Origin: Ilumatobacteraceae bacterium
Lineage (GTDB): Bacteria > Actinomycetota > Acidimicrobiia > Acidimicrobiales > Ilumatobacteraceae
Reading direction: 5' to 3'
NCBI GenBank assembly: GCA_025358075.1
Contig: JANYKU010000003.1
Coordinates: 1 to 64,000 of the forward strand
DNA: 64,000 nt
Shown here: in pieces, positions 6,607 through 64,000 of the stretch
Position numbering within the stretch: the stretch's first letter is position 1
Layout of the letters: each line of letters starts with the position of its first letter
Program-made: the position numbers and the translations under genes
The notes under the pieces: model-generated
Database searches by the model: none
What the model saw: the letters and a program-made list of their open reading frames with translations, nothing else
Told to the model about the DNA's origin: nothing

Positions 6607-7118
6607 GCGGCCCGGCTCGGTCGTGGTTCGTCGGCGCGTGGCGTCGCCGTTCGATCGTCGTGCCGGGTGGCGATCCAACCGAGCCGTGCGAGGCGTGGTG
6701 GATCCAGACCGAGCACGCGTTCGTCGATGTCAGGGTCACGTTGCCCGGCCACGAGCACAACGGGTTGCCGTACTCGTCGACTCGCGCGTTCGCCGGCATG
6801 TTCGAGATCGCCGACGGTGAAGCGCGTTGGCATGTCGAGCTCGACTCTGAGGGGCTCGTTCCGCGCACCGACCGCGCGGCCGCATCGGGGTTGTTCGTTT
6901 CCAGGGATGACCCACTGTTGATGATCGAGGATGCCCCCGGACGGTTTCGCGAGGAATGGGTTCAATGCGCACCGCTCGGCGAGGTGGAACTCGTTCGCGC
7001 CGGCAACGTCGTCGCCGTGCGGGTCGGCGATGTCAGTGGCGTCGTGTTGTCGGTCGACGGGGCGGTGTCCGGCCGGGTCTGGCACGGAGCGCAGTCCATC
7101 GGGGTCGATCGCGATTGA
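6603..7118 (+). CDS. Hypothetical protein, HRI1-like beta-barrel possible
   Basis: ATGA overlap with the Rieske gene; 171 aa MSGPARSWFVGAWRRRSI...; start chosen inside ORF 5787..7118. Confidence 0.65.
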   Translation: MSGPARSWFVGAWRRRSIVVPGGDPTEPCEAWWIQTEHAFVDVRVTLPGHEHNGLPYSSTRAFAGMFEIADGEARWHVELDSEGLVPRTDRAAASGLFVSRDDPLLMIEDAPGRFREEWVQCAPLGEVELVRAGNVVAVRVGDVSGVVLSVDGAVSGRVWHGAQSIGVDRD

Positions 7119-56478: not shown

Positions 56479-57179
56479 GGCTCGAACTCCATCACGTCTG
56501 CGGCGCGGAACCTGCCGCTGGGCGGAGAGTTTCGTAGCAACCGTCGCAGGCCCGGCACGACGGTTTCGGGAAGCGGTCGGTCGGAGATGTCTTCGCCCGG
56601 GAATGCGGCCTGGTGCATCGCCGTGCGCATGTCGCCGGGGTCGAACCAGTACACCCGCAGCAGTGGCTCCTCGGCAGCCAGCACGTTCGACAACTGCTCG
56701 AGTGCAGCTTTCGACGAGCCGTAGCCGCCCCACCCCGCGTAGCCCTCGACGGCAGCGTCGGAGGTGATGTCGACCACCGTGCCGCCGTTCGCACGGAGCA
56801 TCGGCAGTGCCGCCTGAATGAGAGCCAGCGGGGCGATCACGTTGACCGCGAGAACGCCTTCGAACTCGTCGAGCGGATAGTCGGCGAGCGTCGGCTGCGG
56901 TGATGGTCCGAGAACGCTCGCGTTGTTGACGAGCAGGTCGAGCCGGCCCAGTCCTGCGACTGCATCGAGCAACGCGACACGGTGTCGTCGATCGGCGACG
57001 TCACCGGCGATCGCGTGCACCTCGCCGCCTGCAGGCACCGAACGAAGCGTGAAGGCCGCGTCGTTCAACGCGGACTCGTCGCGGCCGTCGATCACAACGT
57101 TCCATCCGTCTTCGACCAGGCTCGTCGCCAAGGCCAGACCCAAACCTCGAGAGCCCCCGGTGATCAATGCTGTCTGCAT
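56475..57179 (-). CDS. SDR family oxidoreductase
   Basis: ALITGGSRGLGLALATSLVEDGWNVVIDGRDE; NNASVLGP; YGSSKAALEQL. Confidence 0.9.
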   Translation of the reverse strand: MQTALITGGSRGLGLALATSLVEDGWNVVIDGRDESALNDAAFTLRSVPAGGEVHAIAGDVADRRHRVALLDAVAGLGRLDLLVNNASVLGPSPQPTLADYPLDEFEGVLAVNVIAPLALIQAALPMLRANGGTVVDITSDAAVEGYAGWGGYGSSKAALEQLSNVLAAEEPLLRVYWFDPGDMRTAMHQAAFPGEDISDRPLPETVVPGLRRLLRNSPPSGRFRAADVMEFEP

Positions 57180-57228
57180 GATGATCCTTCCTCGTCGCCG
57201 GCGCCGTTCGGCGCGGTCATTTGGCCAT

Positions 57229-57252
57229 TAAAGCAAGTAATGGCTTGCTTTA
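57229..57252. promoter_or_regulatory. Operator-like 24-bp perfect inverted repeat
   Basis: taaagcaag-taatgg-cttgcttta between SDR and kdpD. Confidence 0.65.
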
Positions 57253-59783
57253 TTCCGCGTCGGGAACAAATTCTCCGATCGCTGGTGGGCAATACTGCGC
57301 TCGTGGAACGAGGCCGGTTGCGGGTGTACCTGGGCGCAGCTCCCGGTGTCGGCAAGACCCACGCGATGCTCGATGAGGGTGTGCGGCGACGCGATCGGGG
57401 AACCGATGTCGTGATCGGGCTGGTCGACACGACCGGTCGCCCCCTGCTCGGCCTGCTCGCGGAGAAGTTGGAGCACGTGCCCACGCGGCTCGGCATCGGC
57501 GGTGTTGCCGAGCTCGACACGAACGCGGTGCGTTTGCGTCGCCCCGACCTCGTGCTCGTCGACGACCTCGCCCATCGCATCGACGATGCCCATAGCCGGT
57601 GGGAAGGCGTCGAGGAACTGCTCGCCGACGGCATCAACGTGCTCACGACCGTCGACATCTCCAACATGGAGTCGCTCGGCGACATCGTTACCGGCATCAC
57701 CGGGGCTGTGCCCGACGAGACCGTCCCAGATGTGATGGTTCGCACAGCAGCACAGATCGAACTGGTGGACATGAGCCCGGAGGCGCTGCGGCGTCGGCTT
57801 GCCCACGGGCATGTGTTTCCGCCCGAACGGGTGGACGCCGCCCTCGCCAACCTGTTCCGCCCGCAAGTGCTCGGAGCGCTCCGGCAGCTGGCCCTGTTGT
57901 GGGTCGCCGACCGCGTCGAGGAGCAGCTCGCACGAGAGCTTTCGCCCAGCGGCACGGACGAGACGCGTGACGTTCGCGAGCGGGTGGTGGTGGCGCTCAG
58001 TGGCGAGGGTGGTGATCATCTCGTGCGCCGTGCCGCCCGTCTCGCCGGGCGCACGGGCGCGCAGCTCGTCGGTGTGCATGTGGTGAGCCCCGATCGACAC
58101 CCTGGCCCCGACCTCGAACGGCAGCGGCGCTTGCTGACCGGTCTCGGCGGCGCGTATCGGGAGATCGTCGGCGACGATGTGGCCGAGGCACTCGCCGCGT
58201 TTGCCCGCGTCGAGCAGGCCACGCAGATCGTGCTCGGGGCGCGTCCAGGAGGGTCGCGATCGCGGCGGAGAACCTCGGTGGTCGGTGCCCTGGTCGGCCG
58301 CATTGCTGCTGCCGACATCCACGTCGTCGCCACCGATGCCTCGTTGGCGCTGCGTCGACTCCTCCCGTCACGTCCGGCGCGATCGGCCCGACCGCCCAGG
58401 CAAACGTTGCTGGCGTGGATGCTTTGCCTGCTGGCTCCTCCCGTGCTCACCATCGTGTTGGTGCCGCTTCGCTCGCACGTGTCGGTCGGGTCGGCGCTCC
58501 TTCTCGATCTGTGTGTGGTGATGGGCACGGCAGCACTCGGTGGGCTTCGTCCCGGCCTGGTCGCCTCGCTGAACGCGCTCGCGCTGACGAACTGGTTCCT
58601 GACGCCACCGCTACACACCCTGGCCGTAGGCGACACGCAGAACGTCGTCGCCCTGTCGGTCTTCGTCCTCGTGACCGTGGTCGTCAGCCTTCTGGTCGAC
58701 CGTGCGGCACGCCAGTCGCGCGAAGTCGCCAACGCCAGGGCAGAGGCAGCTGCATTAGCGCGGTCGGCGGCGACACTGGTCGGTGCCCACGACCCGCTGC
58801 CCGACCTGCTCGAACAGCTACGTGCCACGTTCGGTCTCAGCGCGGCATCGGTGTTGGAACGTTCGGAGCACGGCTGGTGGCCGACACATGTATCCGGCAG
58901 TCCGGAGATCCTCGATCCCGCGGATGGGACGTCGATCGACCTAGCTGCCGACGGCAGTCTGTGCCTCGTCGTGTCCGGTGATGGGCTGCGCCCCGAACAG
59001 TTCGAGGTGTTGCGGGCCTTCGCCGATCAGTTGGCGATGGCCGTGGAAGCTCGACGTCTGCGGGCGGACGCGGCCAACGCCGATGTGCTCGCCGAGGCGG
59101 ATGCGTTACGGGCGGCACTTCTTCGCGCGGTGTCGCACGACTTCCGCACCCCCCTCGCGATCATCAAGGCCTCGGCCTCCGGCCTGCTGCACACCGAGGT
59201 CGACTTCTCCGAGTCTGACCGGCGGCTGCTGTTGCACGACATCGAAGGTGCAGCCGACAGACTTGACCGGATGGTGCGCGATCTCCTCGACATGAGCCGG
59301 CTACAAGCGGGCGCGGTCGATCTCACGTTGAGGGCGGTCGCTCTCGAGGAAGTTGTTGCGTCCGCGCTCGCCGGCGTGCCAGATGCGCACCATCGTGTCG
59401 AGGTCGACGTATCGGAGTCGCTGCCAAGAGTGTTGGCCGACGCTGCACTCCTCGAACGGGCGCTGGCGAACCTCGTGTCGAACGCCATCGCGTGGTCGCC
59501 CGAGAACGTTCCCGTCAGGGTCGTCGCCGGCCTTGTCGGCGCCTTCATCGATCTGCGCGTCATCGATCAGGGTCCGGGCGTCGCTGTCGAGTATCGCGAA
59601 CGGATCTTCGTGCCGTTCCAACGCCTCGGCGATCGTTCGAACGACGCCGGCGCCGGTCTCGGGTTGGCCATCGCCAAGGGATTCGTCGAAGCGATGGGTG
59701 CCCGGCTCGATCTCGACGACACGCCGGGTGGCGGCCTGACCCTGTCGATCCGCCTCGCAATTGCCGACGAGGCCGGCGCGTGA
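57240..59783 (+). CDS. kdpD: KdpD-like sensor histidine kinase
   Basis: RGRLRVYLGAAPGVGKTHAMLDEGVRRRDRGTDVVIGLVDTTGRP, USP-like domain, DUF4118-like TM block, H-box SHDFRTPLAIIKASASGLL, HATPase GAGLGLAIAKGFVEAMG; a GTG at 57303 is an alternative start. Confidence 0.95.
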   Translation: MACFIPRREQILRSLVGNTALVERGRLRVYLGAAPGVGKTHAMLDEGVRRRDRGTDVVIGLVDTTGRPLLGLLAEKLEHVPTRLGIGGVAELDTNAVRLRRPDLVLVDDLAHRIDDAHSRWEGVEELLADGINVLTTVDISNMESLGDIVTGITGAVPDETVPDVMVRTAAQIELVDMSPEALRRRLAHGHVFPPERVDAALANLFRPQVLGALRQLALLWVADRVEEQLARELSPSGTDETRDVRERVVVALSGEGGDHLVRRAARLAGRTGAQLVGVHVVSPDRHPGPDLERQRRLLTGLGGAYREIVGDDVAEALAAFARVEQATQIVLGARPGGSRSRRRTSVVGALVGRIAAADIHVVATDASLALRRLLPSRPARSARPPRQTLLAWMLCLLAPPVLTIVLVPLRSHVSVGSALLLDLCVVMGTAALGGLRPGLVASLNALALTNWFLTPPLHTLAVGDTQNVVALSVFVLVTVVVSLLVDRAARQSREVANARAEAAALARSAATLVGAHDPLPDLLEQLRATFGLSAASVLERSEHGWWPTHVSGSPEILDPADGTSIDLAADGSLCLVVSGDGLRPEQFEVLRAFADQLAMAVEARRLRADAANADVLAEADALRAALLRAVSHDFRTPLAIIKASASGLLHTEVDFSESDRRLLLHDIEGAADRLDRMVRDLLDMSRLQAGAVDLTLRAVALEEVVASALAGVPDAHHRVEVDVSESLPRVLADAALLERALANLVSNAIAWSPENVPVRVVAGLVGAFIDLRVIDQGPGVAVEYRERIFVPFQRLGDRSNDAGAGLGLAIAKGFVEAMGARLDLDDTPGGGLTLSIRLAIADEAGA

Positions 59784-60457
59784 AGCGAATCCTCATCGTC
59801 GACGACGACGCCCAGATCGTTCGCGCTTTGGAGATCAACCTGCGCGCCCACGGCTACGAGGTCTCCACCGCGGCAACGGGGGAGGAGGCATTGACGGCAG
59901 CCGCGGCACAGGTTCCCGACGTCGTGCTGCTCGACCTCGGCCTGCCAGGGCTCGACGGCATCGACGTCATCCGTGGACTGCGGATCTGGACGTCGACACC
60001 GATCATCGTGCTGTCGGCACGTGAGGGTGACTCCAGCAAGGTGGCCGCGCTCGATGCGGGCGCCGACGACTACGTCACCAAGCCGTTCAGCATCAGCGAG
60101 TTGCTGGCCCGGACGCGGGCGACCTTGCGACGAGCGCAGCCCGCGCCGGAGGAGCCGATCATCGAGACCGACAACCTGTCGATCGACCTCGCCAAGCAGC
60201 GGGTGAGTCGCGATGGAACGCTGGTCCACCTGACACCAACCGAATGGGCAATCGTCGCGCACCTCGCCCGGTATCCGGGCCGGCTGGTAACGCAGCGGCA
60301 ACTCCTGCAACACGTGTGGGGCCCGCAGTACGAGCACGAGACCAACTACCTCCGCGTGCACCTCGCCGCGATCCGCCGCAAACTCGAGGCCGATCCCGCA
60401 CAACCGCGCTACTTCATCACCGAACCGGGCATCGGGTACCGATTCGAGGCGTCTTAG
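59780..60457 (+). CDS. kdpE: KdpE-like OmpR-family response regulator
   Basis: RILIVDDDAQIVRALEINLRAHGYEVSTAATGEEAL; KPFSISELLARTRATLRR; GTGA overlap with kdpD. Confidence 0.95.
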   Translation: MKRILIVDDDAQIVRALEINLRAHGYEVSTAATGEEALTAAAAQVPDVVLLDLGLPGLDGIDVIRGLRIWTSTPIIVLSAREGDSSKVAALDAGADDYVTKPFSISELLARTRATLRRAQPAPEEPIIETDNLSIDLAKQRVSRDGTLVHLTPTEWAIVAHLARYPGRLVTQRQLLQHVWGPQYEHETNYLRVHLAAIRRKLEADPAQPRYFITEPGIGYRFEAS

Positions 60458-60502
60458 CGCGTTCTTAGCGCTGCGCAGATCGATCTTGGCGAGGTCTTGA
60501 CG
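60452..60502 (+). promoter_or_regulatory. Four-copy phased direct repeat TCTTrGCG, candidate KdpE operator
   Basis: tcttagcg at 60452 and 60463, tcttggcg at 60484, tcttgacg at 60495 (spacings 11, 21, 11). Confidence 0.65.
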
Positions 60503-60523
60503 GCGTGAGAGACGACCGTCGAA

Positions 60524-62914
60524 TTGACTGGAGTCGTGCTCCTCGACGACGATCCGATCCTCCGCGCGACAACCGAGCAGTCGCCCGCCGACACCGCGAC
60601 GCCGACGATTCCGGAGCCGTTCTCGTACCGCGCCAAGACGAAGTTGCTCGGCCATCCGTTGCCCAGCGAGCGCCTCGCCCACGAAACGCTCGGCAAGCCG
60701 ACGGCGCTCGCCGTCTTTGCATCGGACTGCATCTCCTCGTGCGCCTATGCGACCGAAGAGATCCTTCACGTGCTCATCCCGGTGATCGGGCTGGCCGCGT
60801 TCACGCTCGTCACCCCGATCACACTGCTGCTCCTGGTGGTGCTCGGATTCCTCATCCTCTCGTACCGCCAGACGATCAAGGCCTATCCGTCGGCAGGCGG
60901 CGCGTACATCGTGACCCGCGACAACTTCGGCCTGCTACCTGCCCAGGTTGCAGGTGTCGCGTTGCTCACCGATTACATCCTCACCGTTGCAGTCAGCACC
61001 GCCGCCGGCAGCGCGGCGCTTGCCTCGGCCTTCCCGACGCTGGCGCCGTACTCGATGTGGATCGCCATCGGGTTCGTTGGAATCATCGCCTATGGGAACC
61101 TGCGCGGCACCAAGGAATCGGGCCGGCTGTTCGCCGCGCCGACCTTCTTCTTCGTGGCGGTGATGGCCGCGCTGCTGATCACCGGTCTGATCCGACTCGT
61201 CACCGGGTCGCTTCCCGTGCAGTCGAGCCACGTGCCTGGCATGTTGGTGCAGACGCATTCGGCTTCCAACGCGATCTTCATGGGTGCCGGTCTGCTCATC
61301 TTCGCCAAGGCCTTCGCCTCTGGTGGCGCCGCCGTCACGGGTGTCGAGGCGATCAGCAATGGCGTGCCGGCCTTCCGCCCGCCCGCGTGGAGGAACGCGC
61401 GCGACACGCTGGTGTACATGGGCGCGCTCCTGGGCGTGATGTTCCTCGGGCTCTCGTTCCTGGCATCGAAGGTGCATGCAACGCCGTACGCCGCCGGCAC
61501 GCCGACGGTGATCTCGCAGGTCGGCAAGCTGGTCTTCGGCCAAGGGCCGGTCGGTCATGTGATGTTCTTCGCGCTGCAGGCCGGCACGATGCTGATCCTG
61601 GTCCTCGCGGCCAACACCAGCTTCGCCGATTTCCCGCGGCTGGCCTCGTTCCACGCCGGCGACAACTTCATGCCTCGTCAGTTCATGGTTCGCGGGCATC
61701 GACTCGTGTTCTCCAACGGAATCGTCTTCCTCTCCATCGCTGCGGCGGTGACGCTGCTCGGTACCGGCGGCGAGGTCAGCCGTTTGATCCCGCTGTACGC
61801 GATCGGCGTGTTCACGAGTTTCACGCTGTCGCAGGCCGGCATGACCAAGCACCACTTCCGGCTCAAGGAGCAGGGCTGGAAGATGGGCGCCTGGATCAAC
61901 GGCATCGGCGCGGTGCTGTCGTTCCTCGTGCTGATCATCGTCGCCAGCATGAAGTTCATGGAGGGCGCGTGGGTGATCATGCTCATCGTCCCGATCATGG
62001 TCTTCGGGCTGGTGCGCCTGAACAAGGCCTACGAGGTCGAAAGCCACGAGCTTCACGAGGATGCCAAGACGGCGGCGGAAACCCGTCCGTTGCGCCGGCA
62101 TGCAGTCGTGGTGCTCGTCGACAACCTCGATGTTGCCACCGCCAGAGCGATGCAATATGCCAAGACTCTCGCCCCCGACGATCTGCGCGCCGTGCACTTC
62201 GACCTCGATGCGTGGAAGACCGACCAGCTGACCGAAGCGTGGCGGAACCTCGGCTTCTCCAGGTTCCCGCTCGACATCATCGAGTGCCCTGATCGGAGGA
62301 TTGCTCGCGGTGCGTTGGAGTTGGCGGTGAGCCTCACCGCCGACAACGAAACCGAGCTGACGATGCTGATCCCTCGTCGCGAGTACTCGAAGATGTGGCA
62401 TCGGCTGCTGCACGACCATTCATCGAACGGCATCGCTGCCGCGCTGGCCAATCAACGGCACTGCAACGTCACGATCGTGCCGTACCTGCTCGGTGCGAAG
62501 CAGGCAGGTCAACAGCCCGAAGCGCCGACACGCGCCGCGTCCCGCCCCGCGGCCACGTCGAAACCTCCTCGTGCCGCGCCCGTCGTAGCCGACGATCATG
62601 TCGCCGATCTACCAGCGGACCGCACGCGCATCGCCGCGATGAAGGGCCGCACACAGACAACCGTGGCCGGACGCGTCCGCGCCATTCGCGTGCAGCCCTG
62701 GGCCGGCAACCCCGCACTCGAGCTCAACCTCGCCGACGAGACCGGAAGCATCACCGTGGTGTTCACCGGTCGACGCGAAATCGGCGGTGTGCGTCTCGGC
62801 ACGATCATGCAAGTGACCGGTGTGTCGGGCGAGCACCATCGCATCCGGGCCATCATGAATCCGGAGTATCGACTGATCTCCAGCCCAGCCGAGCCGACGA
62901 GCCCGCAGCACTAA
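60524..62914 (+). CDS. APC-superfamily KimA-like (potassium) transporter with C-terminal OB-fold domain
   Basis: KLLGHPLPSERLAHETLGKPTALAVFASDCISSCAYATEEIL; TIKAYPSAGGAYIVTRDNFG; C-terminal TQTTVAGRVRAIRVQPWAGNPALELNLADETGSITVVFTGRREIGGVRLGTIMQVTGVSGEHHRIRAIMNPEYRLI; start codon uncertain (TTG 60524 or GTG 60536). Confidence 0.9.
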   Translation: MTGVVLLDDDPILRATTEQSPADTATPTIPEPFSYRAKTKLLGHPLPSERLAHETLGKPTALAVFASDCISSCAYATEEILHVLIPVIGLAAFTLVTPITLLLLVVLGFLILSYRQTIKAYPSAGGAYIVTRDNFGLLPAQVAGVALLTDYILTVAVSTAAGSAALASAFPTLAPYSMWIAIGFVGIIAYGNLRGTKESGRLFAAPTFFFVAVMAALLITGLIRLVTGSLPVQSSHVPGMLVQTHSASNAIFMGAGLLIFAKAFASGGAAVTGVEAISNGVPAFRPPAWRNARDTLVYMGALLGVMFLGLSFLASKVHATPYAAGTPTVISQVGKLVFGQGPVGHVMFFALQAGTMLILVLAANTSFADFPRLASFHAGDNFMPRQFMVRGHRLVFSNGIVFLSIAAAVTLLGTGGEVSRLIPLYAIGVFTSFTLSQAGMTKHHFRLKEQGWKMGAWINGIGAVLSFLVLIIVASMKFMEGAWVIMLIVPIMVFGLVRLNKAYEVESHELHEDAKTAAETRPLRRHAVVVLVDNLDVATARAMQYAKTLAPDDLRAVHFDLDAWKTDQLTEAWRNLGFSRFPLDIIECPDRRIARGALELAVSLTADNETELTMLIPRREYSKMWHRLLHDHSSNGIAAALANQRHCNVTIVPYLLGAKQAGQQPEAPTRAASRPAATSKPPRAAPVVADDHVADLPADRTRIAAMKGRTQTTVAGRVRAIRVQPWAGNPALELNLADETGSITVVFTGRREIGGVRLGTIMQVTGVSGEHHRIRAIMNPEYRLISSPAEPTSPQH

Positions 62915-62951
62915 CGGGCTGACGACCCGTCCGATGTGATCGACTGGCGAG

Positions 62952-63326
62952 ATGAGCGAGCGACATTCGATCGACGAGATCCTTGGCAGGGCGCGAACGA
63001 CCCTCGATCGTGTGCCACCCGAGCGCCTTGCAGACGAGCAGGCGCACGGAGCGCTGGTCGTCGACATCCGCCCTGTCGAGCAACGGCAACGTGACGGGCA
63101 GCTGCCGGGTGCAGTCGTCATCGACCGAAACGTCCTCGAATGGCGGCTCGACCCCAGCAGCGAGAACCGCATCGACCAAGTCACTGGGTACGACCTGCGG
63201 GTCGTGGTCGTGTGCAACGAGGGCTACAGCTCCAGCCTCGCCGCGGCCACGCTGCAGGAGCTAGGGCTCCACCGGGCCACCGACCTGATCGGCGGCTTCC
63301 AGGCCTGGCTGGCGATCGCGAAGTGA
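62952..63326 (+). CDS. Rhodanese-like domain protein
   Basis: GALVVDIRPVEQRQRDGQLPGAVVIDRNVLEWRLDP...VVVCNEGYSSSLAAATLQELGLHRATDLIGGFQAW. Confidence 0.92.
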   Translation: MSERHSIDEILGRARTTLDRVPPERLADEQAHGALVVDIRPVEQRQRDGQLPGAVVIDRNVLEWRLDPSSENRIDQVTGYDLRVVVVCNEGYSSSLAAATLQELGLHRATDLIGGFQAWLAIAK

Positions 63327-63336
63327 TCACGTCGAC

Positions 63337-64000
63337 TTATTGTGCGGGTTGGGCGTCCGCTCGTTGAAGCACGATGTCGACCTGCGGATGCGCGGCGGTT
63401 CGCCGATAGACGAGTCGACCAGGTAGGGCCTCGACAAGACGTCGCGCCAGGGGGATGCCGAGTCCGTGCGCAGCCGTACCGTCGGCGTCCAAGATCGTCT
63501 CAGGCGAGGCAGAGGGCCCGAATCCGGGCCCCTCGTCGGCCACGGTGATGGTCACCGCGTCGGCCGTGACGTGGTGATCGATGCGCACCTCGCCGGCGCC
63601 ATGGGCCAGCGCATTGTCGAGGAGCACGTCGAGTGCGTGGCGGAGCATCACGGGGTTTCCGGTGACGGCCGGTAGATCGTGTGCGTCGGCGATCGCGAGT
63701 GGCCGGCCCGCAATCGCGAGACGGCCGTGCCACGTAATGCGGAGTTGGTCGAACAGCTGGGTGAGCGAAATGGTCGCTCCGTCGATCGGTGATGTGCGGG
63801 CGATGGCGAGGAGCTCGGTGACGGTGCTCTCGAGGCGATCGATGTCGTCGAGCGACTCGCGCAGCACCTCCGTGTGATCGGGCCGAGGAAACTCGAGCTC
63901 GGTTTCGAGTGCGGCGCGCAGCCCGGCCAGCGGTGTGCGGAGTTGGTGAGACGCATCCGCACTGAACGCGCGTTCCCTCGTGACGAGATCGTCGAGCCGG
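63337..64000 (-). CDS. Sensor histidine kinase, C-terminal part (truncated by window end)
   Basis: H-box FSADASHQLRTPLAGLRAALE read from the − strand at the window edge, HATPase motifs NALAHGAGEVRI, VADEGPGFG, GLGIPLARRLVEALPG. Confidence 0.9.
   Translation of the reverse strand, partial: RLDDLVTRERAFSADASHQLRTPLAGLRAALETELEFPRPDHTEVLRESLDDIDRLESTVTELLAIARTSPIDGATISLTQLFDQLRITWHGRLAIAGRPLAIADAHDLPAVTGNPVMLRHALDVLLDNALAHGAGEVRIDHHVTADAVTITVADEGPGFGPSASPETILDADGTAAHGLGIPLARRLVEALPGRLVYRRTAAHPQVDIVLQRADAQPAQ

Follow-up and report, generated by a model that had tools for sequence, protein, structure and literature searches.

Genes and repeats at the kdpDE-kimA locus

The window, by which we mean the whole 64,000-nucleotide stretch of DNA analysed, derives from an assembly of 193 contigs. 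The sensor kinase gene kdpD (56982..59783, forward strand) encodes a protein with KdpD, Usp, DUF4118, HisKA, and HATPase domains; its true start is uncertain, and the KdpD domain begins at ~57309. The response regulator gene kdpE follows on the same strand (59780..60457), and its OmpR/PhoB-family product has its best solved match in E. coli KdpE (E 8e-65). Residues R193, R200, and T215, through which E. coli KdpE contacts DNA (PMC3264566), are all conserved in the KdpE protein of the window.

The kimA-like potassium transporter gene (60536..62914, forward strand) was assigned an inferred leaderless GTG start, the longest open frame beginning at TTG 60524. Its product combines the APC fold (AA_permease_2) with a cytosolic domain similar to that of Bacillus subtilis KimA and matched the KimA structure (PDB 6s3k) over residues 33-650 (E 7.6e-114). 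The protein is a KimA homologue and a putative potassium importer, and the gene neighbourhood is the one proposed in the preliminary description, with kdpD and kdpE upstream, as judged by their domains and the E. coli KdpE match, and the KimA homologue downstream. Fused behind the KimA cytosolic domain is a C-terminal OB-fold (PF01336, 62660..62830, forward strand), a weak match that does not reach the curated cut-off (E 5.6e-5). Orthologues from this order share the length of ~800 amino acids. A KimA close to those of Acidimicrobiia was also found on CAMCTY010000001.1, a sequence titled Bifidobacterium breve and probably a misnamed metagenome-assembled genome.

Direct reading of the window located four forward-strand repeats in the interval 60452-60502: TCTTAGCG at 60452..60459 and again at 60463..60470, TCTTGGCG at 60484..60491, and TCTTGACG at 60495..60502. 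Their start-to-start steps are 11, 21, and 11 bp, and both the letters and the phasing are exactly as originally claimed. Half-site 1 lies in the stop region of kdpE, as had also been noted: TCT TAG at 60452-60457 forms the final serine codon and the stop codon of the gene, which ends at 60457. Half-sites 1 and 2 constitute a putative distal KdpE box at -84..-66 from the inferred transcription start, and half-sites 3 and 4 a putative proximal box at -52..-34.

Distribution of the array across genomes

Allowing up to one mismatch, a search of the whole genome to which the window belongs gave three instances of the pair TCTTRGCG-N3-TCTTRGCG. Two of the occurrences are the halves of the window array, and the third lies 50 bp upstream of the start of a KimA paralogue on contig C90. 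The latter is a single inverted box (6677-6695 of locus L039); its other side faces a ribosomal protein operon, and the paralogue is followed by two TrkA-like genes. This second KimA type, which was found in G022 as well, has one box in the orientation seen at kdp genes.

In this genome the kdpFABC promoter (C22:9722-9772) carries the same site in the form TGTGAAGA-N3-CGTGAAGG-N13-CGTGAAGG-N3-CGTGACTA, that is, an 11-21-11 array that is inverted relative to the one at kimA and has three mismatches to the full four-part pattern defined below; a TAGAAC hexamer lies 26 bp downstream of it. Related boxes were present in the kdp promoters of G007, G008, G020, G026, and G028. In every clear case the half-site read toward the gene is TCTTnrCG at kimA versus CGYnAAGR at kdp; this opposite orientation is regular and mechanically unexplained, and it counts against the operator reading. 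No kdpE follows the kdpFABC-kdpD operon of C22, and a divergent kdpDE pair is located on the same contig. A small membrane protein of ~70 amino acids, encoded before kdpF and ~320 to 180 bp before kdpA, is a feature of kdp operons in this order (L040-L053).

Scans for four half-sites were made by pattern only (CGYNAAGR-N3-CGYNAAGR-N13-CGYNAAGR-N3-CGYNAAGR), with gene content unused and the same pattern reversed as the control. With up to three mismatches, the only two matches in the window genome were the arrays at kimA and kdpFABC. Among 41 genomes, the same threshold gave eight matches (control, 0), seven of them at kimA or kdpFABC. The eighth, in the region 1501-2090 of L107 (G020:C75), precedes the gene of a 166-aa protein homologous to the KimA cytosolic domain alone (29% identity, E 8e-11), possibly a new protein of the potassium regulon. 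When up to two mismatches were allowed, 17 matches were obtained across 397 genomes of the order and the reversed control again gave 0; at least 16 of the 17 belong to kimA, kdpFABC, or kdpD loci, and the remaining one adjoins a gene for a DUF4118 membrane protein of the type that precedes kdpFABC elsewhere. Separate genes for such DUF4118-like proteins, which resemble the membrane part of KdpD, directly adjoin the array at L219, L220, L223, L226, and L229, and at the last three of these loci the gene precedes kdpA.

Several further sites were recorded outside these arrays. Isolated pairs inside unrelated genes (G028:C192 and G009:C58) were rejected as operators and taken as chance occurrences. 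A perfect pair on G011:C60 (L071, 3682-3700) is placed between a KdpE-like regulator gene and a gene for an APC-family permease not closely related to KimA. Three TTGACG repeats with 11-bp steps were seen near luciferase-like genes on G016:C2 (L070, 3958-3976), in a genome without kdpD.

We further analysed the spacing of TCTTNRCG half-sites on the same strand and within 60 bp of each other in 115 upstream regions of KimA-family and kdpA genes from other genomes. Spacings of 11 bp (n = 25), 21 bp (n = 10), and 32 bp (n = 16) were obtained, and small additional classes fell one base below or above 21 and 32 bp. For the corresponding shuffled sequences the mean was 0.06 (maximum 1) at 11 bp and 2.26 over all spacings. 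An 11-21-11 array precedes kimA in other genera as well. In orthologues it reads TCTTAGCG-TCTTGACA-TCTATGCG-TCTTGACG in G020, CCTTGACG-TCTTAACG-TCTTGGCG-GCTAGACG in G008, and TCTTAGCG-TCTTAGCG-TCTTGGCG-TGTGAACG in L109. The array is kept in orthologues although the sequence around the repeats differs, and it is conserved as an architecture rather than as a stretch of sequence.

The gene order around the array varies. It lies between kdpE and kimA in the window, G008, and L109 (and in G022, with a single box), between divergent kdpED-like genes and kimA in G020, G027, G032, L110, L119, L121, L122, L123, and L160, and at the head of a kimA-kdpFABC-kdpD run in G030. Shortened KdpD-like kinases divergent from kimA, with the array in between, were observed at L074, L110, L119, L121, L123, L160, and L198. 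Among 27 KimA-bearing genomes, an operator was found at a KimA gene in 10 of the 14 with kdpD versus 2 of the 13 without it. The four kdpD-bearing genomes that have no clear operator at their KimA genes are G007, G011, G026, and G031, and they count against the operator reading. The two kdpD-less exceptions (G032 and G033) carry a KdpD-like DUF4118 kinase, which is absent from six operator-less genomes; the G032 kinase is encoded at the divergent locus, and that genome has no PF02702 match.

Inferred promoter geometry and probable identity of the regulator

A -10-like hexamer, TTGACT, was inferred at 60524..60529 on the forward strand, and orthologues have TTCACT, TTCGAT, or TTCATT at equal spacing. 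A hexamer of the form T-T-n-n-n-T is placed exactly 21 bp downstream of half-site 4 in four orthologues, and the GTG codon follows it after exactly 6 nt. The gap between operator and hexamer is 10, 11, or 32 bp in other orthologues (10-11 bp in G033, G032, and G027), with the 6 nt to GTG kept, which suggests that shifts of the operator may be restricted to roughly full helical turns, in ~11-bp steps. The position of the hexamer 6 nt before GTG in orthologues also suggests that the kimA transcript is probably leaderless, starting at or next to GTG 60536. The start site had initially been placed near 60530; the hexamer geometry of the orthologues favours ~60536. The hexamer itself is poor and no sigma-70 promoter was scored, both of which count against the operator model.

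The initial proposal that TTGACG within repeat 4 serves as a -35 element was abandoned on account of its 21-bp distance from the conserved hexamer, its loss in orthologues (repeat 4 reads GCTAGACG in G008 and TGTGAACG in L109), and the outcome of the promoter search performed here, which scored no sigma-70-like promoter. In a PhoB class II promoter the last repeat lies ~10 bp from the -10 element, in contrast to the 21 bp in the window.

KdpE is named as the regulator on three independent grounds: the array found ahead of kdpFABC in this genome, the restriction of the pattern to potassium loci, and the agreement with experimentally mapped KdpE boxes. The 22-bp KdpE site of M. smegmatis, CCGTAAAGAAACCATCAAGGCC, was proven by footprinting and EMSA (PMC5401905). 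It parses as CGTAAAGA-N3-CATCAAGG, which is CGYNAAGR-N3-CGYNAAGR with one mismatch; only 7 of 500,000 shuffles of the site match the pattern equally well, and the half-sites agree at 13 of 14 informative positions. The E. coli KdpE half-sites, TTTATA-N5-TTTACA (PMC3264566), have the same 11-bp step as the direct repeats of the window, and TTTACA aligns to TTnrCG. The original proposal, in which KdpE controls the KimA-like gene through this operator, is thereby supported along four independent lines: the conservation of the array, its presence in the kdpFABC promoters of this and related genomes, the match to the mapped M. smegmatis box, and the adjacency of kdpDE. We consider it highly likely that 60452-60502 is a double KdpE operator that activates kimA under potassium limitation.

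In the model that we propose, KdpD would sense potassium limitation and phosphorylate KdpE, and a single KdpE dimer would occupy each box, made up of two TCTTnrCG direct repeats with an 11-bp step. The starts of the two boxes are separated by 32 bp, or three helical turns, which would put them on one face of the DNA. Phosphorylated KdpE is predicted to bind both and to activate the kimA-like promoter, with transcription beginning at or next to GTG 60536. Boxes of the same kind at kdpFABC and at the second, kimA-trkA-trkA cluster point to a potassium-uptake regulon in this genome, in which a second type of importer, KimA, would very probably be switched on via the same switch as the emergency potassium pump.

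The array could instead be the site of another OmpR/PhoB-family regulator, such as PhoP/RegX3 or MtrA, with the nearness of kdpE incidental. Genes for OmpR-family regulators are numerous in the window genome, direct repeats with an 11-bp step are a general trait of this family, and M. tuberculosis PhoP uses 7-bp motifs with a 4-bp spacer (PMC4832192). However, the four-half-site matches lie at potassium rather than phosphate loci, the half-site fits the footprinted mycobacterial box, and the adjacency of kdpDE persists across several gene orders, which makes this explanation very improbable. A chance origin of the repeats in the 3' end of kdpE and the adjoining spacer might be argued from the shortness of the half-sites and from the isolated pairs inside unrelated genes, but it has been refuted by the conservation found, given that the control of the four-part pattern had zero matches across the 397 genomes and that half-site spacings peak strongly outside the window genome, and its likelihood is practically negligible.

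A role of KdpE as a repressor of kimA, or mainly as an autoregulator of kdpDE, is unlikely, though some points favour it: KdpE of S. aureus represses kdpFABC (stated in PMC5401905), several relatives have the array between divergent kdpED and kimA, and the window array overlaps the end of kdpE. Against this reading, the array is positioned upstream of the inferred -10 element (-84 to -34) and does not cover it, it lies downstream of kdpDE in the window and so cannot drive these genes, and in G030 it stands ahead of kimA, kdpFABC, and kdpD in one run. Activation of kimA by KdpE is the reading that we retain.

In the window genome, three kdpD genes but only two good kdpE genes were identified; either of the two KdpE paralogues might bind the window array, which counts against the proposed model. 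The KdpE proteins of this family that are linked to kimA and those linked to kdp form separate clades (support 95/91 and 90/89) and differ in their recognition helices (NYLRVHLAAIRRKLE versus the NLLRVHVAHIRRKLE type). At kdp, 10 of 14 half-sites from four genomes with the leucine-type KdpE have C at position 5, versus none of 20 kimA half-sites from five close relatives, which have A or G instead; these counts were made by eye, and orthologous sites are not independent. We tentatively suggest, while leaning somewhat against it, that two KdpDE pairs may split the potassium regulon and be insulated by operator specificity, with TCTT[A/G][A/G]CG at kimA and TCTTCACG at kdp. Duplicated KdpDE pairs would be a naturally occurring case in which to study how paralogous response regulators keep their targets apart.

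Comparison with known systems

KimA has so far been known as a c-di-AMP- and riboswitch-controlled transporter of Firmicutes, and in Bacillus subtilis kimA is controlled by the c-di-AMP riboswitch ydaO. The window shares the transporter family with B. subtilis but has a predicted two-component DNA operator in place of the riboswitch: no Rfam match, hence no ydaO riboswitch, was found in 56500-63500, and since a leader is probably absent as well, riboswitch control was rejected. If the model is correct, KimA joins the KdpDE regulon in Actinomycetota, and the sequence signature would suffice to read the potassium regulon from genomes alone. The Streptomyces KdpDE system has been described as not yet analysed (PMC10117811), and our literature search, which covered a minority of subscription journals, found no paper linking KdpE with kimA. 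The operator type is thus known, but as far as we can tell the array doubles it and places it at a target that has not been described before.

The array resembles the tandem pho boxes of the PhoB type in that its 11-bp direct repeats are stacked on one side of the helix ahead of the promoter, but the half-site sequence and the regulon are different, and repeat 4 of the window is not at the usual distance for replacing a -35 element. The M. smegmatis KdpE box likewise consists of two CGYNAAGR-type direct repeats with an 11-bp step, in the orientation of the kdp arrays of the window genome; M. smegmatis has one described box at kdpFABC, whereas the window has two boxes 32 bp apart, in the opposite orientation, at kimA. 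The E. coli box also comprises two 6-bp direct repeats with an 11-bp step, but it is AT-rich, single, and located at -72 to -50 of kdpFABC, in contrast to the GC-rich, double array at -84 to -34 of kimA. No similarity between the E. coli and M. smegmatis boxes was seen by the authors of the mycobacterial study (PMC5401905), whereas our alignment of the half-sites suggests that the two may be the same direct repeat in opposite orientation.
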